From Keratinibaculum paraultunense (GTDB taxonomy: Bacteria > Bacillota > Clostridia > Tissierellales > Tepidimicrobiaceae): DNA of 64,000 nucleotides. A program made the translations under genes and the position numbers. The DNA is taken from the NCBI RefSeq assembly GCF_016767175.1, contig NZ_CP068564.1, positions 992,001-1,056,000 of the forward strand. Direction: 5' to 3'. The stretch's first letter is position 1, and the number at the start of each line of letters is the position of its first letter. Shown here piece by piece: positions 1,805 through 49,200 of this stretch. Below the pieces are notes generated by a model that had not been told where the DNA came from, searched no databases, and saw only the letters and a program-made list of their open reading frames with translations.

Positions 1805-2542
1805 ATGGAATATAAAATTATACTAGAGTCTTTTGAAGGACCTATGGATTTATTGTTACATCTTATAGATGAAGCAAAGATTGATATATATGATATTCCT
1901 ATAAATGAGATAACAGAACAATATTTAGAATATATTACTAAGATGGAAGAGTTGGATTTGGAAATTACAAGTGATTTTTTGTTGATGGCTGCTACATTAC
2001 TTGAAATAAAATCAAAGATGCTTCTTCCTCAACTTGATAAAAATGAAGAAAAGCAATTGGAAATGGAAGAAAATGATCCTAGATTAGAATTAACTAAAAA
2101 ATTGATAGAATATAAAAAATTTAAGTATATTTCTAAAGAACTAAAAGAATATGAAGAAATCCAAAGAAAAGTTTTTTACAAACCTAAAGAAGATTTATCT
2201 TTATTTATAGAAGAAGATGAAAGTTTAAAGCCAATGGATTTAGATGAACTGGTAAAAGCCTTCAATTGTATACTTGCTAAAACTAAAGACAGTAATAATA
2301 TTATTGATGTAGATAAGATACAAAGAGAAGAATATACACTAGATAAATGTATGGAAAATATAAAAAAGAAATTAAGTAATAAAAAACAAATAAAGTTTCA
2401 GCATTTATTTGACGAGAATGTTGATAAGCAAGAAATAATAGTTACGTTCTTGTCTTTACTTGAATTAATTAAAATGAAAGAAGTTGTTGTATATCAAGAA
2501 AAAAATTTTTCAAATATTGTGATTAAAAAAAGAGGTGTTTGA
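1805..2542 (+). CDS. scpA: Segregation and condensation protein A
   Basis: Kleisin subunit of the SMC-ScpAB condensin, which bridges Smc heads for chromosome compaction and segregation. The N-terminal kleisin signature (ESFEGPMDLLLHLI) and the C-terminal winged-helix region are visible, and length is about 245 aa, normal for ScpA. An in-frame ATG at 1781 overlaps the preceding gene, but AGGGG at 1792-1796 is correctly spaced for ATG 1805, which also gives the usual N-terminus. The stop overlaps the upstream part of scpB, so translation is probably coupled. Confidence 0.95.
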   Translation: MEYKIILESFEGPMDLLLHLIDEAKIDIYDIPINEITEQYLEYITKMEELDLEITSDFLLMAATLLEIKSKMLLPQLDKNEEKQLEMEENDPRLELTKKLIEYKKFKYISKELKEYEEIQRKVFYKPKEDLSLFIEEDESLKPMDLDELVKAFNCILAKTKDSNNIIDVDKIQREEYTLDKCMENIKKKLSNKKQIKFQHLFDENVDKQEIIVTFLSLLELIKMKEVVVYQEKNFSNIVIKKRGV

Positions 2543-2544
2543 TA

Positions 2545-3072
2545 GTGGATGAACGGGAGATAAAGGCAATAATAGAAGCATTATTATTTGTTTGGGGTGA
2601 TCCTTTATCTTTAAGTGATATATCTAGAATTATTGAATTAGATGAAGAAAATGTAAAAGAAATATTAGATAATATGATTGCTGAATTTGATTTCTATAGA
2701 AGGGGTTTAAAAATAATATGTATAGAGGACAAGTATCAATTAGCTACTAGACCTGAACATTATCAATGGATTAAAAAGTTAACTCATGAAAAGAAAACTA
2801 AAAGCTTATCAGCAGCAGCTTTAGAAACTTTATCTATTATTGCTTATAAACAGCCTATAACTAAAAATGAAATAGAAGACATAAGAGGAGTTAGATGTGA
2901 TAAGGTCATAGATACATTGCAAGAAAAAGGTTTAATAGAAGAAAAAGGGCGACTAGAAAGAACTGGTCGTCCAATAATATATGGCACTACAAGTGAATTT
3001 TTAAAATATTTTGGTTTAGAAAGCTTAAAAGATTTACCTTCGCTTAAGGATATAAGAATAAAAAAAGAATAA
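2545..3072 (+). CDS. scpB: Segregation and condensation protein B
   Basis: Winged-helix partner of ScpA that dimerises and binds the kleisin in the Smc complex. About 175 aa with two winged-helix domains; the conserved segment ALETLSIIAYKQPIT is near residues 90-105. Start choice: a TTG at 2539 is almost on top of the AGAGGTG ribosome site (2531-2537), while GTG 2545 is spaced 7 nt from it, so GTG is preferred. It is in an operon with scpA and is followed by a strong terminator. Confidence 0.94.
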   Translation: MDEREIKAIIEALLFVWGDPLSLSDISRIIELDEENVKEILDNMIAEFDFYRRGLKIICIEDKYQLATRPEHYQWIKKLTHEKKTKSLSAAALETLSIIAYKQPITKNEIEDIRGVRCDKVIDTLQEKGLIEEKGRLERTGRPIIYGTTSEFLKYFGLESLKDLPSLKDIRIKKE

Positions 3073-3102
3073 TACCTTTTAAAAGGTATTATTCTTTTTT
3101 TA
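3069..3102 (+). terminator. Intrinsic terminator after scpB
   Basis: Inverted repeat AATAATACCTTTT / AAAAGGTATTATT, starting within the scpB stop codon, followed by CTTTTTTT. Confidence 0.85.
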
Positions 3103-3149
3103 TTTGGAAAGATATAGTTATAGTAATTCATTTACATTGGGGTGTTTAC

Positions 3150-3713
3150 ATGAAATATTTATTAATTTTAATACTTTTATTAACTTTTATTTTGTTATTA
3201 TCGTATATAAAATTTAATATTCAATTTATATATAAAACTGATGAAGTAAAGTTTGAGATGTCTATATCTTTATTTAAGATTTTTAATTTTAAAATAAAAC
3301 CATTTAGCGATAAAAAACGGAAGATAAATAAAAAAAGTGGTTTTAATCAATTTTATTTGAATAAAGATTTTTTAAATTATATATTGGATAAAATTATATT
3401 AAAGCAATTAACGTGGAAAACTAAAATAGGATTTAATGATGCATTTTTAACAGCTATAGTATATGGAAGTATTTGGAGTATAAAAAGCGTTTTAATTAGT
3501 TTTATATTAACAAATAAAGAAATAGAATATTTAGATTTTGATGTTGAAGCTATATTTAATAAAGAAGAACTCAATGTTTTATTTAATTGTATAATAAGAA
3601 TAAGAATGGTTTATATTATAATTATATGGATTAAAATATTAAGAATGCGTAAAGGTGGTGGCAAAAATGTCAGAACATCCAATAGAAGGGCTTATGCATA
3701 CAACAATGAATAG
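3150..3713 (+). CDS. DUF2953 membrane protein (YtfI-like)
   Basis: Uncharacterised protein of 187 aa with one N-terminal transmembrane segment (residues 3-22) and a soluble domain. The DUF2953 pattern WKTKIGFNDAFLTAIVYG is near residues 90-107. It is placed immediately before, and overlapping by 47 nt, the GerW/YtfJ gene; the same ytfI-ytfJ pairing is known in Bacillus, so a spore-related role is inferred. Its C-terminal 15 residues are coded by the overlap and are probably not conserved. Confidence 0.75.
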   Translation: MKYLLILILLLTFILLLSYIKFNIQFIYKTDEVKFEMSISLFKIFNFKIKPFSDKKRKINKKSGFNQFYLNKDFLNYILDKIILKQLTWKTKIGFNDAFLTAIVYGSIWSIKSVLISFILTNKEIEYLDFDVEAIFNKEELNVLFNCIIRIRMVYIIIIWIKILRMRKGGGKNVRTSNRRAYAYNNE

Positions 3714-4098
3714 CTTAAAAGAAATGGTTGATGTAAATACTATTATTGGTGACCCAGTTCAATCAGAAGACGGTTTAATTATTATACCAGTTTCAAAAAT
3801 TTGCTTTGGTTTTGCATCTGGAGGAACAGAGTTTAAAAAAATATTAAATAATAAGGAAACAAACATTTCTGATGAGAAATTACCTTTTGGAGGGGGTAGT
3901 GGTGCAGGAGTTTCAGTTCAACCAGTAGGTTTTATTGTTGTAGGAAATGATCAAATTAAGTTACTAACAGTGGATGAAGGAAATACAGCTTTAAGTAGTT
4001 TATTTGATTTTCTAGGTAAGGTAGTAGATAATGTGCAGGAATCTATGACTAAAAATAAAGCTAAGAATGATTATGATGATTCCATAGATATTAGCTAA
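3667..4098 (+). CDS. ytfJ: GerW/YtfJ family sporulation protein
   Basis: Spore protein of the GerW family, needed in Bacillus for germination or access of SleB-type lytic enzymes. The opening residues (EHPIEGLMHTTMNSLKEM) and the glycine-rich FGGGSGAGVSVQPVGFIVV stretch are hallmarks. In-frame GTG codons at 3655 and 3658 lie inside the AAAGGTGGTGG ribosome site; ATG 3667 gives the family N-terminus. 143 aa, typical. It overlaps the end of the DUF2953 gene, suggesting coupled translation. The Asp/Lys-rich tail is variable in the family. Confidence 0.92.
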   Translation: MSEHPIEGLMHTTMNSLKEMVDVNTIIGDPVQSEDGLIIIPVSKICFGFASGGTEFKKILNNKETNISDEKLPFGGGSGAGVSVQPVGFIVVGNDQIKLLTVDEGNTALSSLFDFLGKVVDNVQESMTKNKAKNDYDDSIDIS

Positions 4099-4129
4099 AT
4101 ATAATCAAATATTAAAATTAGTTTATTGG

Positions 4130-4160
4130 AGAAGCAGAATATTTCTGCTTCTATTAATTT
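4130..4160 (+). terminator. Weak terminator-like hairpin after ytfJ
   Basis: Perfect 10-bp stem AGAAGCAGAA / TTCTGCTTCT with a 3-nt loop (4130-4152), then TATTAATTTAATT. It falls inside the extended reading frame of the next gene, arguing that gene starts downstream. Confidence 0.5.
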
Positions 4161-4188
4161 AATTATTAAAATGAAAGGAAGATTCTAT

Positions 4189-5298
4189 TTGAAAAAAAAT
4201 ATTTTTATATTATTGCTTACTATCATCTTGTTTATAAGTAGTTATTCATTTGGGCAAAAACCGAATATTAGTGCACAAAGTGCTATATTAATGGATAAAG
4301 AGTCGGGTAGAATACTAATTGAATATAATCCTTATATAAGATTACCCATGGCTAGCACTACCAAAATAATGACAGCATTAATTGCATTAGAAAGAGGAAA
4401 TATAAATGATAAGATTGAAATAAAAAAACATTATGTGGGTGTTGAAGGCTCTAGCATATATCTTTATGAAGGTGAAATTATAAGTTTAGAAGATTTATTA
4501 TATGGTTTAATGTTAAGATCTGGAAATGATGCTGCTATTGCTATAGCTGATTATATTGGGGGTAATATTGAACAATTTGTATTTATGATGAACCAAAAGG
4601 CTAAAATTATTGGTGCTAATAATACAAATTTTGTGAATCCTCATGGTCTTCATGATGATAATCATTATACAACAGCTTATGATCTTGCATTAATAACTAA
4701 AGAAGCAATGAATATTGAGAAATTTACAGAAATTGTGAAGTCGAAAATGTGGAAGGCTCATAGGGAGAAAAATAATTTATTCTATAATAAAAATAATACT
4801 CTTTGGGAATATGAAGGAGGTGATGGGGTAAAAATTGGATATACTATAAGGGCAGGAAGATGTTTAGTATCTAGTGCAACTCGGAATGGGCGTACTATTA
4901 TTGCAATAGTGCTTAATGATAGAAATTGGTTTAATGATTGTTATAATTTACTAGATTATGGATTTGAGAATTTTAGAAACTATGTAATATTTGATAGAGG
5001 TCAGTGTTTGAGAGAAATTGCTGTGATAAATGGCAGGAAAGATTTTGTATCAGTTGTGATAAAAAATTTATTTACTTATCCATTAAAAGAAGAGGAACTA
5101 GATAAAGTTAAAATCTATATTGATTTACCAAATGAAATACTTGCACCAATAGAAAAAAATCAAGTTATAGGTAAAGCTAGGGTATATTTAGATGGAGTAT
5201 TAATCCATGAGGAAGATATTATATCTAAAGAAGCTGTAGCAAAACTAGGTTTTTTTGAGAGTTTAATTAAAACTATAAACACAAAAGATAAAAATTGA
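4189..5298 (+). CDS. DacF-type D-Ala-D-Ala carboxypeptidase paralogue with KIG in place of KTG
   Basis: Secreted serine carboxypeptidase-like protein (S11). The TTG at 4189 is taken as start because AAAGGAAGA (4174-4182) precedes it and the signal peptide KKNIFILLLTIILF then begins at residue 2; ATG 4171 is an alternative, and ATG 4126 lies upstream of a hairpin. SxxK (ASTTK) and SxN (RSGND) are intact. The third motif reads VKIGYTIRAG, so the usual KTG is KIG, removing the hydroxyl residue next to the catalytic lysine. The enzyme may be weakened or altered. The C-terminal PBP5-like domain is present. About 369 aa. Confidence 0.88.
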   Translation: MKKNIFILLLTIILFISSYSFGQKPNISAQSAILMDKESGRILIEYNPYIRLPMASTTKIMTALIALERGNINDKIEIKKHYVGVEGSSIYLYEGEIISLEDLLYGLMLRSGNDAAIAIADYIGGNIEQFVFMMNQKAKIIGANNTNFVNPHGLHDDNHYTTAYDLALITKEAMNIEKFTEIVKSKMWKAHREKNNLFYNKNNTLWEYEGGDGVKIGYTIRAGRCLVSSATRNGRTIIAIVLNDRNWFNDCYNLLDYGFENFRNYVIFDRGQCLREIAVINGRKDFVSVVIKNLFTYPLKEEELDKVKIYIDLPNEILAPIEKNQVIGKARVYLDGVLIHEEDIISKEAVAKLGFFESLIKTINTKDKN

Positions 5299-6352: not shown

Positions 6353-7627
6353 ATGAATAAGGTAGTAATTATAGGCGGTGGTTGGGCTGGATGTGCAGCG
6401 AGTATAGCTGCTATTAAGTTAGGAGTTTCAGTGGTTCTAATTGAAAAAACAGATATGTTACTAGGTTTAGGTAATGTAGGAGGGATAATGAGAAATAATG
6501 GTCGATATACAGCAGCAGAAGAAAATATTTTTTTAGGAAGAGATGAGCTATTTGATATAACAGATAAATTTACTTTGCATAAAGATATAGAATTCCCTGG
6601 TCATAAACATGCATATTTATATGATGTAACAAAAATTGAACCAGCTGTTAGAAAATTAATATTATCATTAGGTGTTGAATTAAAGTTGCAAAAACGAGCT
6701 ATAGATGTAATATTAGAAGATGATTATATAAAAGGTATTGTACTAGATGATGGAGAAATAATATATGGTGATGGTTTTATAGAAACAACAGGCTCTACTG
6801 GTCCTATGGGAAATTGCCTGAAGTATGGTAACGGTTGTGCTATGTGTATTTTAAGGTGTCCTACTTTTGGTCCAAGAATTAGTATAAGTCAAAAAGCTGG
6901 AGTTAAGGATATAGTAGGTATGAAGAAGGATGGTTCTTATGGAGCATTTAGTGGTTCTTGTAAACTAAATAAAGATTCATTAAGTATTGAAATAAAAAAT
7001 GAGTTGGAAGAAAAAGGAGTTGTATTACTTCCTATTCCTCAGGAAGATATTAAGCGAGAAAAATTGTCTAAAAAAGTATGTCAACAATATGCATTAGATG
7101 AATATGCAGAAAATGTAATATTATTGGATACTGGGCATGCTAAGATGATGACACCATTTTATCCATTAGAAAAACTTAGAAAAATTAGAGGCTTAGAAAA
7201 TGCTCGTTATGAAGATCCATATTCAGGTGGTATAGGTAATTCAGTAAGATATCTATCTATTGCTCCAAGGGATAATACTATGAAAGTTAAGGGAATAAAA
7301 AATTTGTTTTGTGCAGGTGAAAAATCAGGTCTATTTGTTGGGCACACAGAAGCAATTGTTACAGGCAGTTTGGCAGGATACAATAGTGTCAGATATGTAT
7401 TTAATAGAGAGTTATTAAAACTTCCTACAGATTTGGCTATTGGAGATTTAATTTATTTTGTAAATAAAAAAATGAAAACAGAAGAAGGTTTAAAAGATAG
7501 ATATACCTTTGCAGGAAGTACTTATTTTAATAGAATGATTGATAAAGGTTTATATACTACTAATGATCAGCAAATAAGAGATAGAGTTGAAAAATTAGGA
7601 TTATTAAATATATATAATAGAATTTAA
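6353..7627 (+). CDS. FAD-dependent oxidoreductase, partner of the PyrK-like flavoprotein
   Basis: A 424-aa flavoprotein with an N-terminal dinucleotide fold (VVIIGGGWAGCAASIAA, residues 4-20). Near residue 160 there is a cysteine cluster (CLKYGNGCAMCILRCPTFGP). Near the C-terminus the motif IKNLFCAGEKSGLFVGHTE resembles the FAD-closing motif of MnmG/TrmFO proteins. The resemblance suggests a GidA-like fold, but it is not MnmG or TrmFO, which have different lengths and motifs. It is translated right after the PyrK-like gene from an AAGGAGGAATC site. The substrate is unknown. Inference: NAD(P)H electrons enter by the PyrK-like protein and reach this subunit through the Fe-S cluster. Confidence 0.72.
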   Translation: MNKVVIIGGGWAGCAASIAAIKLGVSVVLIEKTDMLLGLGNVGGIMRNNGRYTAAEENIFLGRDELFDITDKFTLHKDIEFPGHKHAYLYDVTKIEPAVRKLILSLGVELKLQKRAIDVILEDDYIKGIVLDDGEIIYGDGFIETTGSTGPMGNCLKYGNGCAMCILRCPTFGPRISISQKAGVKDIVGMKKDGSYGAFSGSCKLNKDSLSIEIKNELEEKGVVLLPIPQEDIKREKLSKKVCQQYALDEYAENVILLDTGHAKMMTPFYPLEKLRKIRGLENARYEDPYSGGIGNSVRYLSIAPRDNTMKVKGIKNLFCAGEKSGLFVGHTEAIVTGSLAGYNSVRYVFNRELLKLPTDLAIGDLIYFVNKKMKTEEGLKDRYTFAGSTYFNRMIDKGLYTTNDQQIRDRVEKLGLLNIYNRI

Positions 7628-7695
7628 TGATAATTTACAAGATAGATAAAAAAAGGTATTATATACTATAGTTGAACTTAGAAAGGATGAGGTAG

Positions 7696-8403
7696 ATGAG
7701 GTTACAGAAATATATGGCTAAATGTGGTGTGGCTTCAAGAAGAAAGTCTGAAGAAATTATACTTGAAGGTAGGGTAAAGGTAAATGGAATTATTGAAAAG
7801 AAACTAGGTACTGTTATTGATCCAAATAAAGATGTGATAGAAGTTGACAATAAAATAATTAATATGGAGGAAAATAAAGTATATATTATGTTAAACAAAC
7901 CTGAAGGATATGTCACAACTGTAAAGGATAAATATAGTAAAAAGATTGTATTAGATTTAATAGTTGGAATTGATGAAAGAATCTATCCAGTAGGTAGATT
8001 AGATTCAGAAACAACTGGATTGTTGCTTATGACTAATGATGGAGATTTAACTTATAAATTAACCCATCCAAGTTATCAAGTTCCTAAAAAATATATTGCT
8101 TTAGTAGAAGGTATACCAAATAATAAAAAACTTCATAAATTTAGAAGAGGACTTAAAATAGATGGAAGGATAACAGCAGAAGCGTATATAAAAATACTAA
8201 AAGAATATAAGAATACTTCATTATTAGAAATTTCAATACATGAAGGGAGAAATAGACAAATAAGGAAAATGTGTCAGCATATTGGTCACCCAGTCATTAA
8301 GTTAAAAAGAGTAGCTATTGGAGAATTAGAACTGGGGAAATTAGAAGTTGGAAAATGGAGATACTTAACTTCTAAAGAAGTTAAGTATCTCAAAACGCTT
8401 TAG
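7696..8403 (+). CDS. rluB: 23S rRNA pseudouridine synthase, RluB/RsuA family
   Basis: Isomerises a uridine in 23S rRNA (position 2605 in E. coli RluB). N-terminal S4 RNA-binding domain (MRLQKYMAKCGVASRRKSEE, residues 1-20 onward). The catalytic motif GRLDSETTGLLLMTNDG (residues about 97-113) contains the catalytic aspartate. The C-terminal EGRNRQIRKM segment is typical. 235 aa is the normal length. In Bacillus the rluB gene also lies near scpAB, so the association is old. Confidence 0.93.
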   Translation: MRLQKYMAKCGVASRRKSEEIILEGRVKVNGIIEKKLGTVIDPNKDVIEVDNKIINMEENKVYIMLNKPEGYVTTVKDKYSKKIVLDLIVGIDERIYPVGRLDSETTGLLLMTNDGDLTYKLTHPSYQVPKKYIALVEGIPNNKKLHKFRRGLKIDGRITAEAYIKILKEYKNTSLLEISIHEGRNRQIRKMCQHIGHPVIKLKRVAIGELELGKLEVGKWRYLTSKEVKYLKTL

Positions 8404-42968: not shown

Positions 42969-44513
42969 TTATTTTGCATATTCAACAGCTCTTGTTTCTC
43001 TAATAACATTTACTTTTATTTGTCCTGGATAATCTAATTCGGATTCTATCCTTTTAGCAATTTCTCTTGCAGTGTGAACTATTTCGTCATCTTTAACATC
43101 TTCAGGTTTTACCATAATTCTTAATTCACGTCCTGCTTGTATAGCATAAGATTTTTCAATTCCATCAAATGAATTTGCAATTTCTTCTAATTTTTCAAGC
43201 CTTTTTATATAAGCTTCTAAAGTCTCTCTCCTTGCACCAGGTCTTGCAGCAGAAATTGCATCAGCAGCTTGGACTAAAACAGCTTCTACACTCTGAGGTT
43301 CTATATCTCCATGATGAGCTGCTATAGCATGCAAAACTTCTTTTGATTCTCTATATCTTCTAGCTATATCTACTCCAATATCTACATGAGGACCTTCTAT
43401 TTCGTGATCTACGGCTTTCCCTATATCATGCAATAATCCTGCTCTTTTAGCTATTTTAACATTTGCCCCTAACTCGGCTGCCATAACCCCTGCAATATGA
43501 GATACTTCGATAGAATGTTTTAAAACGTTTTGACCATAGCTTGTTCTGTATTTTAATCTACCAAGTAACTTTATTAATTCTGGATGTAAATTATGAATAC
43601 CTGTTTCAAATGCTGCTTGTTCACCTTCTTCTTTTATAATATTATCAACTTCCACTTTAGCTTTTTCAACCATTTCTTCAATTCTTGCAGGATGTATTCT
43701 CCCATCTACAATTAATTTTTCTAAAGCAATTCTTGCAATTTCTCTTCTTATAGGATCAAATCCAGATAATACTACCGCTTCTGGCGTATCGTCAATTATT
43801 AGATCGATTCCTGTTAAAGTTTCAAGTGTTCTAATATTTCTACCTTCTCTACCAATTATTCTACCTTTCATTTCATCATTTGGTAAATTTACTACTGTTA
43901 CTGTTGTTTCTGCAACATGGTCTGCAGCACATCTTTGAATAGCGCATGAAATGATTTCTCGTGCTCTTTTTTCAGCTTCTTCTCTAGTTTGTGCTTCAAT
44001 TTCTTTAATAATCATGGCAGATTCATGAGCTATTTCTTTTTTAATATCGTTTAATAATAATTCTTTTGCTTCTTCGGAGGTTAAGCCTGAAAGTCTTTCT
44101 AATTCTTCTACTTGCTTTTCATAGAGTTCATTTATAAGAATTTCTTTTTCATTTAGTTCCTTTTCTTTTTTATTAAGAATTTCTTCTCTTCTTTCAAGAG
44201 TTTCACTTTTTCTATCTATAGATTCTTCTTTGTGCATTAAGCGACGTTCTAATTTTTGTATTTCTGATCGTCTTTCTCTATTTTCTTTTTCATTTTCAAT
44301 TCTTATTTTGTGAACTTCTTCTTTTGCTTCCAGTAAAACCTCTTTTTTACGTGTTTCAGCTTCATGATTAGCATCTTCAATAATCTTTATAGCTAATTCT
44401 TCGGCATTTTTGATTTTTCGTTCACCAATATTTTTCCTTATATAATAGCCAGCTACAATTCCGACAATAATACCTATGATAATACCTATGATGGTTATTA
44501 CAATATCAATAAT
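42969..44513 (-). CDS. rny: Ribonuclease Y, probable ATT start codon
   Basis: Membrane-anchored endoribonuclease that starts mRNA decay. From the ATT at 44513 the protein is about 514 aa: transmembrane segment ([19 protein letters not shown]), long charged coiled coil (residues about 30-200), KH domain ([19 protein letters not shown]) and HD domain ([10 protein letters not shown]). The frame is open from a stop at 44529-44531 down to the first ATG at 44237, with no ATG, GTG or TTG between. Starting at 44237 would delete the anchor. AGGAGG lies 6 nt before ATT 44513; ATT 44510 is the next option. Confidence 0.88.
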
Positions 44514-44580
44514 GACCCACCTCCTGTTCTATTTAATTTTCAAGTTCCATTTACATATTCCAGTTATACACACAATCTTA

Positions 44581-44610
44581 GTAAAAATATAAACCGAGTA
44601 GTCTCGGTCT
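44581..44610 (-). promoter_or_regulatory. Terminator-like hairpin in the rny leader
   Basis: Minus strand ACCGAG-ACTA-CTCGGT (44608-44593) followed by TTATATTTTTAC. It lies between the strong promoter and the rny start, so it can stop transcripts before rny (attenuator) or end upstream transcripts. Confidence 0.6.
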
Positions 44611-44654
44611 ATAGAGTCTACATACTATAATTTTGCATAGCATGGTTCGTTTTT

Positions 44655-44720: not shown

Positions 44721-45377
44721 TTAAAATGTGATTTCTTCTAAATAACTTCTTGATTCCTTCAAGTATACTCTATAGGCTTTAGTACCAATTGAAGAAAGAT
44801 GATTATTATGGGTCACCATAATAATTTGTCTATTAAATAATTCTGATGTCTTTTTTAAAAAATCAGCTACGTTAAAAATATACTCTTCACTTACATGTTT
44901 AGCAGGTTCATCTAGTATAAGAGGTCCTTCAATTTTGGGTTTATATATTTCTAGAAAAGCAATACGTAATGCTAAAGAAATAATATCTACTACTCCACCA
45001 CCCCTTGATAATTCTGGTTTAGTTTTTATAGTACCCTCTTTAGTTTTAGTCAATACATAAAACTCAGCATTTGGTTTACCATAAAGTTCATTTATTTCTA
45101 TTTTAAATTCTACATTGTTTTCAAAAATGTATTGTAAACAATTAGTAACTAATGATTCAACTTGAATTTTGGCTTGATTTCTAGCAAATTCAGAAGTATT
45201 TTGTAAAAGCACACTAACTTTTTCCATTAATTGAATTTTAGATTCAATTTTTTGAATTAAATTTTCATGTTCTTGTATTTGTTCTAGTATTTTTTCTTTT
45301 TTACCTTGTTCTTTTGAAATATAAGATTTCATATTAGAAATATAAGATTCCAATTCTTTATAATTATTTATAGGCAT
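44721..45377 (-). CDS. C-terminal half of a split Rad50/SbcC-like ABC ATPase
   Basis: 218 aa. A coiled coil (residues about 8-80) leads into the C-terminal ATPase lobe. ABC signature variant LSRGGG at 123-128, Walker B LILDEP at 153-158, D-loop region HVS, and switch His in VTHNN at 190. There is no Walker A. In ordinary SbcC/Rad50 this part is one chain with the N-terminal lobe; here the N-lobe is coded at 45644-47086. The frames are separated by stops and own ribosome sites, so this is not one simple frameshift. Confidence 0.82.
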   Translation of the reverse strand: MPINNYKELESYISNMKSYISKEQGKKEKILEQIQEHENLIQKIESKIQLMEKVSVLLQNTSEFARNQAKIQVESLVTNCLQYIFENNVEFKIEINELYGKPNAEFYVLTKTKEGTIKTKPELSRGGGVVDIISLALRIAFLEIYKPKIEGPLILDEPAKHVSEEYIFNVADFLKKTSELFNRQIIMVTHNNHLSSIGTKAYRVYLKESRSYLEEITF

Positions 45378-45381
45378 ATCA

Positions 45382-45630
45382 TCACTTCTCTTCTAATATA
45401 TCCTTTGGCAACAGAGCATTAGCTTTTTGGAAAAGTTCATTTATTTCTATTGTTAATTTTTCAATTTCTTCATCTAATTTTTCAGGATCTACTCCTAAAC
45501 TATTTAGTTCTTTTATAATTTCCGCTTGCTGATTATTTAATTGCTCTAATCTAGCTTCTGCTTTATATTTTAAGTTTTTAGCCCTTTCAAGATTATCTTT
45601 TAATTTATTAAGTTCTTTTTCATAATCCAT
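45382..45630 (-). CDS. Small coiled-coil protein between the Rad50-like halves
   Basis: 82 aa, almost entirely heptad-like charged helix (residues 1-70), without Cys. Clear AGGAGG ribosome site. It ends 4 nt before the C-lobe gene. It might supply part of the descending coil that is missing in the split protein. Not recognised as a named family. Confidence 0.75.
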   Translation of the reverse strand: MDYEKELNKLKDNLERAKNLKYKAEARLEQLNNQQAEIIKELNSLGVDPEKLDEEIEKLTIEINELFQKANALLPKDILEEK

Positions 45631-45643
45631 ATTTGTATCCTCC

Positions 45644-47086
45644 TTACTTATATTTATTAATTATTTCATCAATTTTTAGTTTGTCAATGGGACTAAAACA
45701 TAGTGGGCATACCTCAATCTTTGATAATATATATTTATATTGTTTTAAGTATTCATCTAACATTAGAGAAATATTTTTTATTTGTTTTTTAATATCAAGT
45801 TTTGTATCATTAATAGTTTTATATATTTTATTATAATCTTTTAATTTTATTATTCTATTTATTTTATTTTCAAGTAAATTATTTGTATAAATAACTTGTT
45901 CAAGATTTTTAAATTCATCCGTATAAATAATACCAATTGAAATATTTTTATTTATATTGTTTAATTTATTGTTTAGTTTTACTAGTTTATCTAATCTTAA
46001 TATCTTTTTTTCAATAAAACTAAGATCATATTGAATTTTGTGTATTTCTTCCAATTTAATTAACAATTTTTTGTTTTTTAAAATATCATTTTTTATATAA
46101 TTATAACTTTTGTTAAGATTATTGAGTTGTTCTATTTTATCATTATATAAATTAATTTTTTCTAATAAATTTTCAACTGTGAAAGTATTTTTTAAAACTT
46201 TAACTAAATTACTATTATGCTTAATTTGTTCCCTAATATTATTAAGTTCATAATATTTATCACTTAAATATATATGTTTTTTAATATCCTGAGATAGTCT
46301 TCGTTCTATTGTTATAATTTTATCAATATTATTAAGTTTTCTTAAATAATCTTCCATTAGTTTTATTTCTTTGTTTAATTTATTTAGCTCATTTCGCAAA
46401 AAGTCCAATTTTGTTAATTTTTGTTCACTCTTATATATAAAATGTTTAACTTTATCTAATTCCTCAATTCTATCTATTAAATTATCTAAATATTCATATT
46501 CTTCCAAGTTATTGTAAAGAACGTCTAAAGTTTCCTCATAAGATTTTTTCTTTATATTTAAATTCCTTATATCTTTTAAAGTATCTTTTAAAGCATCATC
46601 TACTATATGCACTCCAACTAATCTACCAATAGCATTAGCTCTTACAGAACTCTTTTCTGAAATAAGAAAAGGTCCTTCTAATTGTTCACTTATATTAATA
46701 GAGTTAGTTTGATTACTATCTAGAGGAACCTTTCTTATGGAAGTTGCAGCTATGATTTCCTTAGGAACTAAAGTTCCAAAACCTTCAAATATTTTTTCAT
46801 TTCCCTCTTTATCATATAAAATATATAAGTTTTTACTTTTGCTTCTATATCTTTTGATTTTGGTATTATCACTGAAAGTAACTGTTACACTACATTCACT
46901 TTCACCTTCTCTTATAAAAAAATCCCCAGAAGGTTCATTGTATAAAACCCATTTTAAAGCTCTGATTATAGCAGTTTTACCTTGATCTGATGGACCAACT
47001 ATAACATTCAAACTAGAATCAAACTCTATTTCCGTGTATTTATGCGATTGAAAGTTTTCTAATATAAGTTTCTTTATATATTTCAT
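45644..47086 (-). CDS. N-terminal half of a split Rad50/SbcC-like ATPase ending in a zinc hook
   Basis: About 480 aa. Rad50-type N-lobe with Walker A GPSDQGKT at residues 31-38 and a Q-loop region (NISEQLEGPFLIS). It is followed by about 270 aa of coiled coil and a zinc-hook CPLC at 460-463, only 17 residues before the end. Canonical Rad50 continues back through a second coil to the C-lobe; this chain stops at the hook. Start ATG 47086 has AGGAG 12 nt upstream; ATG 47098 is directly on the ribosome site. It overlaps or abuts the nuclease gene. Confidence 0.83.
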   Translation of the reverse strand: MKYIKKLILENFQSHKYTEIEFDSSLNVIVGPSDQGKTAIIRALKWVLYNEPSGDFFIREGESECSVTVTFSDNTKIKRYRSKSKNLYILYDKEGNEKIFEGFGTLVPKEIIAATSIRKVPLDSNQTNSINISEQLEGPFLISEKSSVRANAIGRLVGVHIVDDALKDTLKDIRNLNIKKKSYEETLDVLYNNLEEYEYLDNLIDRIEELDKVKHFIYKSEQKLTKLDFLRNELNKLNKEIKLMEDYLRKLNNIDKIITIERRLSQDIKKHIYLSDKYYELNNIREQIKHNSNLVKVLKNTFTVENLLEKINLYNDKIEQLNNLNKSYNYIKNDILKNKKLLIKLEEIHKIQYDLSFIEKKILRLDKLVKLNNKLNNINKNISIGIIYTDEFKNLEQVIYTNNLLENKINRIIKLKDYNKIYKTINDTKLDIKKQIKNISLMLDEYLKQYKYILSKIEVCPLCFSPIDKLKIDEIINKYK

Positions 47087-47087
47087 A

Positions 47088-48077
47088 TCAAAATTCATCT
47101 CCTAAACTTTTCATTTGGGAGTTAGATATTCTTCTTAATGCTTCTTTTTTTACTTCTTCTGGTACTCCTTCTGCATTAGATACTTCCATTAATATTTCGT
47201 TTATTTCTAGTTTTTCAAAATTTACTGCAGTATCTATAGATTGTTTGAAATCAAAAAGTTTTTCTGATTTGAATATATGATCTTCTATTTCTTTTCTATC
47301 TAAAACATCTAAGCCATGAGCTGCAGATTTTAATTGAATCAATTCTACATCAATATGATGATTATTCAAATTTATTAATACGACTTTAGGCATTCGTTCT
47401 ATTTCTGTTAAACTATTAGTTATTCTTATAAGACTGCCAGGATTTATAAAATATTTATTATCAATTTTTATAATGCCAAAACCTGAGTGATAATGTCCAG
47501 ATAAAGTAATATCAGCTTGTGTATCAATTATATCTTCAATTAAAGTATAAGGTATACCTTTGATAAAAGGTTTATTTAAAAGCATACCATGAACCATGTG
47601 AATAGAATAATCAACATCATCAGATACATCTTTTACTATATAATTAGATTTATTTTTTTCATTATCTATATTATATGTATAAGATTTTCCAGTCAATTGA
47701 ACTTTTACACCATTTTTATTTAAAAATATTTTTTCCTCATCTTTTATTATTCTTACTACATTTAATGTATCTAATAAACCAAGCATAGTTCTATCTATAG
47801 TTTGAGGATTATGACCATAGATATCATGATTTCCACAAATAGTATATATTGGCACTTTTATATTGTTCAACATAGATGCAAAATGTCCCACCACAGAAAC
47901 AGAGACATCAGGTCTATCAAATAAATCCCCTCCATGTAGAAGAAAATCTACATCATATTTTTTAACAATTTCATTTACTTCTAAAATCTTTTTTTCAAGT
48001 GTTTTATATAAATCATCTTTTCTGTTTTTAGGTGTAGTTCCTCTAATATGTGTATCTGTAATAAAAAGTAATCTCAA
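47088..48077 (-). CDS. Mre11/SbcD-like metallophosphoesterase
   Basis: 329 aa, calcineurin-like phosphoesterase. Dinuclear metal motifs: DTHIRG (residues 7-12), GGDLFDRP near 50, GNHDIYG near 85, HMVHG near 157 and GHYHSG near 190. The C-terminal capping/Rad50-binding region is present. TTG start after AAGGAG. Partner of the split ATPase; downstream of recA, so probably DNA end processing. Confidence 0.87.
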   Translation of the reverse strand: MRLLFITDTHIRGTTPKNRKDDLYKTLEKKILEVNEIVKKYDVDFLLHGGDLFDRPDVSVSVVGHFASMLNNIKVPIYTICGNHDIYGHNPQTIDRTMLGLLDTLNVVRIIKDEEKIFLNKNGVKVQLTGKSYTYNIDNEKNKSNYIVKDVSDDVDYSIHMVHGMLLNKPFIKGIPYTLIEDIIDTQADITLSGHYHSGFGIIKIDNKYFINPGSLIRITNSLTEIERMPKVVLINLNNHHIDVELIQLKSAAHGLDVLDRKEIEDHIFKSEKLFDFKQSIDTAVNFEKLEINEILMEVSNAEGVPEEVKKEALRRISNSQMKSLGDEF

Positions 48078-48094: not shown

Positions 48095-48124
48095 AAATAA
48101 ACCTCCTTTAAAGGAGGTTTATTT
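48095..48124 (-). terminator. Hairpin between recA and the nuclease gene
   Basis: Perfect inverted repeat AAATAAACCTCC-TTTAAA-GGAGGTTTATTT touching the recA stop codon. T-rich arm only, so read-through into the nuclease operon is possible. Confidence 0.6.
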
Positions 48125-49200
48125 TATTTTCCTTTTTCTTCTTTTTCTTTTGACTCAATCTTTTTTTCATTATTATTATCGTTATTATCTAAATTTGGAT
48201 TTTGAGATGTTAATCCAAATTGTTCTCTTATTTTGTTTTCTATTTCCTGTGCAATTTCTGGGTTTTCTTTTAAAAAATCTTTGGCATTTTCTCTTCCTTG
48301 TCCAAGTCTATGTTCACCATAACTATACCAAGATCCAGATTTATTGATTATCTCTGCATCAACTCCAGCATCTAATATATTTCCTTCTTTTGATATACCG
48401 GTACCATACATTATATCAAATTCAGCTTGTTTAAAGGGTGGAGCTAGCTTGTTTTTTACTACCCTAACTCTAGTTCTATTACCAAGTATGTTATCTCCTT
48501 GTTTTATTGAATCAATTCTTCTAACATCGAGCCGTATACTTGCATAAAACTTTAAAGCTCTTCCTCCTGTTGTAGTTTCTGGATTACCAAACATTACACC
48601 AACCTTTTCTCTTAATTGGTTAATGAAAATTAAAGTAGTATTAGATTTATTAATTGCTCCTGCTAATTTTCTTAATGCTTGAGACATTAATCTAGCCTGC
48701 AGTCCTACATGGCTGTCACCCATTTCCCCTTCAATTTCTGCCTTAGGTACAAGAGCAGCTACTGAATCTACTACCACTATATCAACAGCACCGCTCCTTA
48801 CTAAAGCTTCAGCAATTTCCAATGCTTGTTCACCTGTATCAGGTTGGGATACTATTAAGTTATCTATATCGACCCCTAATTTTCTTGCATAAATAGGATC
48901 TAAAGCATGTTCTGCATCTATAAAAGCAGCAATACCGTCCAATTTTTGAGCTTCAGCAATTGCATGTAATGCTACAGTAGTTTTTCCTGATGATTCTGGA
49001 CCGAATATTTCAACTATTCTTCCTCTAGGTAGTCCACCAATACCAAGAGCAATATCTAAATCTAAAGAACCTGTTGGTATTACATCGATATTTTGAATGT
49101 CAGTGTCCCCTAATATCATGATAGAGCCCTTACCAAATTGTTTTTCAATTTGGTTTATAGCAATATCTAAAGCTTTCTTTTTTTCATTTTTATCAGTCAT
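48124..49200 (-). CDS. recA: Recombinase RecA
   Basis: 358 aa. ATP-binding GPESSGKTT at residues 67-75, MAW-type linker [15 protein letters not shown], Walker [10 protein letters not shown]1/L2 loops ([28 protein letters not shown]), and variable acidic/Asn-rich C-terminus. Drives strand exchange and LexA cleavage. Its promoter carries a LexA box. Confidence 0.97.

Follow-up and report, generated by a model that had tools for sequence, protein, structure and literature searches.

In textbook accounts, a Rad50 or SMC protein is one chain, and a continuous coiled coil forms the arm between the two lobes of its ATPase. At a locus of Keratinibaculum paraultunense, such a protein appears to be encoded in separate pieces. 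In the window, a stretch of 64,000 nucleotides, the minus strand carries, in this order, recA (48124..49200), a metallophosphoesterase of the Mre11/SbcD type with a TTG start (47088..48077, 329 aa), three genes termed here N (45644..47086, 480 aa, or 484 aa from an alternative in-frame ATG 12 bases upstream), S (45382..45630, 82 aa) and C (44721..45377, 218 aa), and rny. The original prediction had interpreted these genes as a Rad50/SbcC-like ATPase split into three genes next to an Mre11-like nuclease, a reading that the profile and structure matches described below bear out. An inspection of open reading frames recovers nuclease, N, S and C as four separate genes downstream of recA. The nuclease stop and the N start are one base apart, the 13-base gap between N and S contains the AGGAGG ribosome-binding site of S (45639..45644, minus strand) and S and C are separated by four bases. 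The reading frames differ between N and S and again between S and C, each piece having its own start, thus indicating that neither one stop nor one frameshift accounts for the split, as had been anticipated. The accompanying claim that each piece also has its own ribosome site holds for S, whose Shine-Dalgarno sequence is strong, but not to the same degree for C, where the site is weak; given this weakness and the short gap, translation of C may be coupled to that of S.

A terminator-like hairpin, identified as a candidate in a pattern scan, is located between C and rny (44588..44613, minus strand). At the beginning of rny (window 44500-44530, minus strand), a perfect AGGAGGTG site precedes a conserved in-frame ATT, whose context is mostly GTT ATT GA., without any ATG, GTG or TTG for tens of codons. 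The same arrangement of AGGAGGTG and ATT is found in the relatives L002-L006, L008, L010-L012, L014, L015 and L017, and L022 and L024 contain an ATG at the position that holds ATT elsewhere. The sequence suggests that rny, encoding RNase Y, would start at AUU, a start codon known from infC.

The nuclease contains the metallophosphoesterase domain (PF00149, 1e-16), and its motifs DxH, GDxFD, GNHD, H163 and GHxH show little or no variation among 15 relatives. The best PDB matches of its profile (A4) are Mre11 proteins (3e-9), which together with the motifs identifies the Mre11/SbcD fold, although its score of 30 bits against the SbcD model TIGR00619 remains below the cut-off of 77.65 for a canonical SbcD. 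The same applies to the other models of the SbcC, SbcD, Rad50 and Mre11 families, which all match far below their cut-offs, and searches of Pfam and NCBIfam return generic or sub-threshold matches to Rad50/SMC and SbcD/Mre11. The N protein combines a Rad50-type N-lobe (PF13476, 9e-14) with a helical arm and a hook and matches the phage family PHROG 16465 over its full length (1e-70). Its Walker A motif GPSDQGKT (residues 31-38; 46973..46996, minus strand) has core residues that are invariant in our alignment A2, and its predicted lobe matches the N-lobes of SMC, Rad50 and RecF with Z-scores of 11-14 (VIA-align), where the 50 structures retrieved with the N-S model align largely to residues 1-228 and thus speak for the lobe and not for the arm. 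The motif CPLC (residues 460-463; 45698..45709, minus strand), in which C, P and C are invariant in A2 (CPxC in 14 of 14 aligned N proteins), is found 17 residues from the C-terminus, in line with the earlier proposal that the piece ends right after a zinc hook. More generally, 91 of 94 N proteins have a CxxC motif in their C-terminal half, and this motif is nearly always no more than about 30 residues away from the end, which places the first chain break just past the apex of the hook. As in Rad50 and SbcC, the arm thus appears to carry a CxxC hook at its apex, for which zinc binding is predicted.

The complementary part of the head is encoded by C, where an 80-residue helix precedes a Rad50-type C-lobe. 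The protein matches PHROG 15167 (3e-61), its best PDB profile matches are the C-lobes of Rad50 (2e-12) and the top Foldseek matches of its predicted fold are again Rad50 proteins. Its motifs comprise the signature LSRGGG, the Walker B motif LILDEP and the H-switch VTHN; all elements of a bipartite ABC head, among them Walker A and Q-loop of the N-lobe, are therefore present, though divided between N and C. Among 17 aligned C proteins, GGG is nearly invariant and the DE (D156 and E157 of the Walker B sequence LILDE, residues 153-157; 44907..44921, minus strand) and TH residues are invariant. In an ungapped alignment with Rad50 of P. furiosus, the LSGGE sequence is replaced by RGGGV (residues 125-129; 44991..45005, minus strand), and the protein thus contains a variant in place of the canonical SGG[EQ]. 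The signature had been noted as unusual before, and since RGGGV is kept in nearly all relatives we regard it as a property of the family and not as a defect. The replacement of the serine and the glutamate of the Rad50 signature could make ATP-dependent dimerization different. Structural features were taken from AlphaFold models of read-through fusions of adjacent genes in relatives (N-S from L013 and S-C from L014, with stops modelled as glycine), which are of fair confidence with respect to secondary structure and lobe folds, whereas their low overall pTM of 0.34 and 0.60 implies that they say nothing on how the pieces pack together. A full read-through chain of N, S and C is present in L166 (P0001).

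The distribution of the split was investigated in relatives, where the original prediction had suggested to look for the same gene order. In all 26 relatives that were initially fetched, N, S and C are separate genes, and the order recA, nuclease, N, S, C, rny is found wherever the contigs reach, two of them being cut at the 5' side. In relative L012, the nuclease gene is broken into two open reading frames (2294-3289) while N, S and C are intact, and in some relatives there is room for, or the presence of, another gene after recA, which in L166 is recX. In a sample of 398 genomes of the phylum, the C profile matches in 66, of which 65 were retained after dropping the 558-residue match in G246, which looks RecN-like. 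The 30 loci with the best matches were scanned together with 19 others chosen by place, which include nearly all weaker or odd matches, and N, S and C were apart wherever the locus is complete, save in one family. A continuous gene encoding both hook and arm, which would have spoken for a mutation in our genome, was found at none of the inspected loci. Second, divergent copies away from recA were observed in G070 (L083), G108 (L081) and G295 (L082), of which the copy in L083 looks truncated; these copies are perhaps carried by prophages.

In the exceptional family (G044, G364 and G300), a single protein of 684-700 residues combines the nuclease, the N-lobe and the C-lobe, which marks the two lobes as halves of one head. 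This fusion protein has neither a long arm nor a CxxC hook, and S was not found in searches of the whole genomes. In a maximum-likelihood tree of 129 C-lobes, obtained in a quick search and unrooted, the fusions group together and are nested within the chromosomal split clade, so that the fusion looks secondary. The chromosomal rows of the same tree form nearly one clade, whereas the viral rows branch more deeply and show greater diversity, and it is possible that the cassette originated from a phage.

Each of the three ATPase pieces has a full-length counterpart in a distinct phage family (PHROG 16465 for N, 18563 for S and 15167 for C), and the split is retained in the majority of 70 viral contigs, where the pieces occur in several gene orders and are hardly ever fused. 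These orders include N-S-C-nuclease, nuclease-N-S-C, N-nuclease-S-C and fusions of nuclease and N, with C nearly always being a gene of its own. Such nuclease-N fusions are found in the phage contigs L092, L097 and L098; in L097, which by its length of 218,948 bases we take to be Bacillus phage 0305phi8-36, S and C are separate open reading frames. The Bacillus phage vB_BboS-125 (L028) shows the order N, AP2 gene, S, C, another gene and nuclease, where the gene between N and S (7149-7721) encodes an AP2-domain, homing-endonuclease-like protein, and similar inserts may occupy the large gaps found at the N-S site of other prophages. Several viral loci, among them a 485-kb phage contig (L031) where the assignment was made by eye, contain S-like frames that the first model had not detected, whereas S was not recognized in some of the viral loci that are most distant. 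The contig L031 contains, also by eye, a sliding-clamp-like frame of 377 aa between the S-like frame and C (3858-4991) and a PD-(D/E)XK-like nuclease frame after the metallophosphoesterase. A putative nuclease-N-S fusion in L131 was rejected, since among its 141 residues past the hook the S profile matches just 30 (E 7e-4).

We then turned to the relationship with SbcCD. Family models detect no canonical SbcC or SbcD in the genome of K. paraultunense, where TIGR00618 matches SMC and the cassette locus only, none above the cut-off, and where neither PF13558 nor TIGR00619 finds a match; a second full sbcC, whose presence would have weakened the original prediction, is thus not found by these models. 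The genome also encodes an AddA-like protein and, at about 1343175-1346704 of G000:C1 (L091, 676-4205), a YhaN-like ATPase (811 aa) beside a YhaO-like metallophosphoesterase (365 aa). For the phylum-wide comparison SbcD was used, as PF13558 is a poor marker of SbcC, its strong matches of 1100-1500 aa being presumably Wadjet-type JetC proteins. Canonical SbcD is present in 3 of 65 genomes with the split system compared to 165 of 333 others (p 2e-13), and at family level, where 6 families contain both, 21 the split system only, 65 SbcD only and 49 neither, the p-value amounts to 0.001, with phylogeny being handled only crudely in these statistics. Two of the three exceptions have a phage-type gene order and the third is a marginal SbcD match.

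Several explanations of the locus can be weighed against these results. A recent mutation or a sequencing error in an ordinary sbcC would leave three adjacent pieces ordered as in one gene, which is what we observe, but the differing frames with their own starts, the conservation of S as a protein and the occurrence of these three genes, with their boundaries conserved, in numerous genomes and phages reduce its probability to a negligible level. Hardly more credible is the view that the genes are a decayed or inactive remnant that persisted by chance: it would account for the altered signature, but the other motifs and the nuclease ligands are conserved and both S and C are under purifying selection. 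The system could alternatively be an ATPase-nuclease of anti-phage defence, akin to Lamassu or Gabija, instead of a housekeeping repair factor. The defence models of PADLOC show partial and weak matches, confined to the ATPase lobes (LmuB, GajA and AriA), and the fixed core site between recA and rny, the near-exclusion with SbcD, the closer structural relationship to Rad50 and Mre11 and the frequent occurrence in phages, where the cassettes adjoin replication and recombination genes, make this assignment improbable. We thus consider it very probable that the four genes encode a complete nuclease of the Mre11-Rad50/SbcCD type, whose Rad50 subunit consists of three polypeptides assembled in trans and which replaces SbcCD.

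From the described features we infer the formation of the complex, its nuclease activity and substrate, the dimerization of hooks and the role of S. In the assembled particle, the lobe with Walker A would come from N, as would the zinc hook and the ascending arm. C would contribute the lobe with signature and Walker B motif as well as that part of the descending arm which is next to the head, and S a further partner of the arm. The lobes of N and C would unite as one ABC head whose dimerization would be driven by ATP, a nuclease dimer would dock on the head and the hooks would link two arms. Such a complex would be expected to cleave blocked, hairpin or broken DNA ends, which would subsequently be handed over to RecA-dependent repair.

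The arm of N displays an internal organization of its own. A profile autocorrelation defines six helical repeats of 47 residues (residues 180-461; 45704..46549, minus strand), with lags of 47, 94 and 141 ranking first, second and third and with 0 of 300 shuffles reaching the observed signal in each of three null models (blocks of 7, 11 and 14 residues). The same analysis reveals no period of 47 in the coils of SMC and YhaN of this genome. The consensus of the repeat is L..L...L..I...I......L..LK.I..AE.I...IE.K..KL.K, and in the models of the relatives' fusions the helices of the arm break close to the LK.I motif. In 62 dereplicated N proteins, the distance between Walker A and hook clusters near 331, 383, 429 and 478 residues, with a looser group at 270-312, and the best period is 46.5 (Rayleigh R 0.71, p 3e-14), where the p-value is optimistic as the group at 429 is large and related. 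Hence, the length of the arm varies across relatives by whole 47-residue repeats, a feature that was not part of the original prediction. That prediction had pointed out the disparity of the two coils, and with an ascending arm of about 290 helical residues compared to about 80 in C and at most about 72 in S, the descending part is indeed much shorter. With a single copy of each protein, roughly half of the arm would be left unpaired, thus requiring more copies of S, pairing of the arm with itself, or a second N.

The properties of S bear on this choice. Substitutions relative to the nearest relative are distributed as 8, 4 and 28 on the three codon positions and the length and core residues of the protein are kept in phages (family A9; PHROG 18563, 1e-11, over the full length), which together identify S as a real gene. 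Its fold is predicted in the fusion models as a helix of 43 residues, a turn at GVDP and a second helix of 25 residues. Among the four genes, S has the strongest Shine-Dalgarno sequence in relatives (median -11.3 compared to -9.4 to -9.6 kcal/mol; p 0.002-0.005), as would fit an excess of S. We thus envisage, as a speculative proposal that we judge rather unlikely in this form, an arm built from bricks, in which the repeats of N, about three to seven in relatives, would set the length, multiple copies of S, made in excess by virtue of their strong ribosome site, would be tiled along it and C would form the base. If true, the zinc-hook arm would be composed of several subunits and adjustable in length, for which no counterpart is known among SMC or Rad50 proteins. 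It is quite conceivable, though short of an even chance, that S is a separate regulator or adaptor binding to the head, to a repair partner or to the nuclease, with the arm of N pairing with itself or with that of a second N. This alternative is favoured by the absence of a relation between the lengths of S and of the arm (r -0.09, n 48), by the helix-turn-helix arrangement in place of one long strand and by the insignificant similarity of S to the coils of C and N, for which hhalign gives probabilities of 5% and 1%, so that no homology is proposed. Against it stand the location of the gene between N and C, where the descending arm would begin, the uninterrupted heptads typical of an arm partner and the fact that S is absent only where there is no arm either, as in the fused family.

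The proposed assembly of the Rad50 subunit from three polypeptides thus describes a chain with one break right behind the hook and a second one in the descending arm, a chain that is kept in this form across a bacterial phylum and in many phages, where it apparently stands in place of SbcCD. Beyond the original prediction, our analysis adds that the split is ancient and common to phages, that the arm of N is modular and changes in steps of 47 residues and that the split system probably replaces SbcCD. It offers a direct test of whether ATP-driven signalling from hook to head and back depends on an arm that is continuous. In a search of the literature, no description of a naturally split Rad50 or SbcC was found.

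Among characterized systems, SbcCD of E. coli and B. subtilis resembles the locus in the combination of a nuclease with a two-lobed ATPase of the ABC/SMC type, in arm and zinc hook and in the order of nuclease followed by ATPase. It differs by its LSGGE signature in place of RGGGV, by the 47-residue repeats found here and by the fact that SbcC is a single polypeptide of about 1000-1200 aa, as opposed to three proteins in the window and in its relatives. Among the Mre11-Rad50 complexes of archaea and eukaryotes, Rad50 of P. furiosus, M. jannaschii and C. thermophilum provides the closest solved structures for the C-lobe and Mre11 those for the nuclease, although Rad50 is one continuous chain there. 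In chains A and B of the entries 1f2t and 1ii8, Rad50 was artificially split into N and C fragments by crystallographers, much as in the natural split described here. The YhaO/YhaN pair, which is also present in the genome of K. paraultunense, similarly places a metallophosphoesterase next to a large ATPase, but its YhaN-like protein is continuous, contains membrane-like segments and shows no split. The same three pieces are represented in phages by PHROG families 16465, 18563 and 15167, which are unlinked there and named exonuclease, unknown function and ATPase, and for which the proposed complex offers a role. Finally, fusions of Mre11 and Rad50 in which the nuclease is joined to Rad50 lobes were described for Anaerostipes and Bacillus phage 0305phi8-36, both of which were without one segment of the P-loop NTPase (PMC3175470). 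In our loci the 'missing' half is a separate gene, and fusions of nuclease and N accompanied by separate C genes explain such halved Rad50 proteins.
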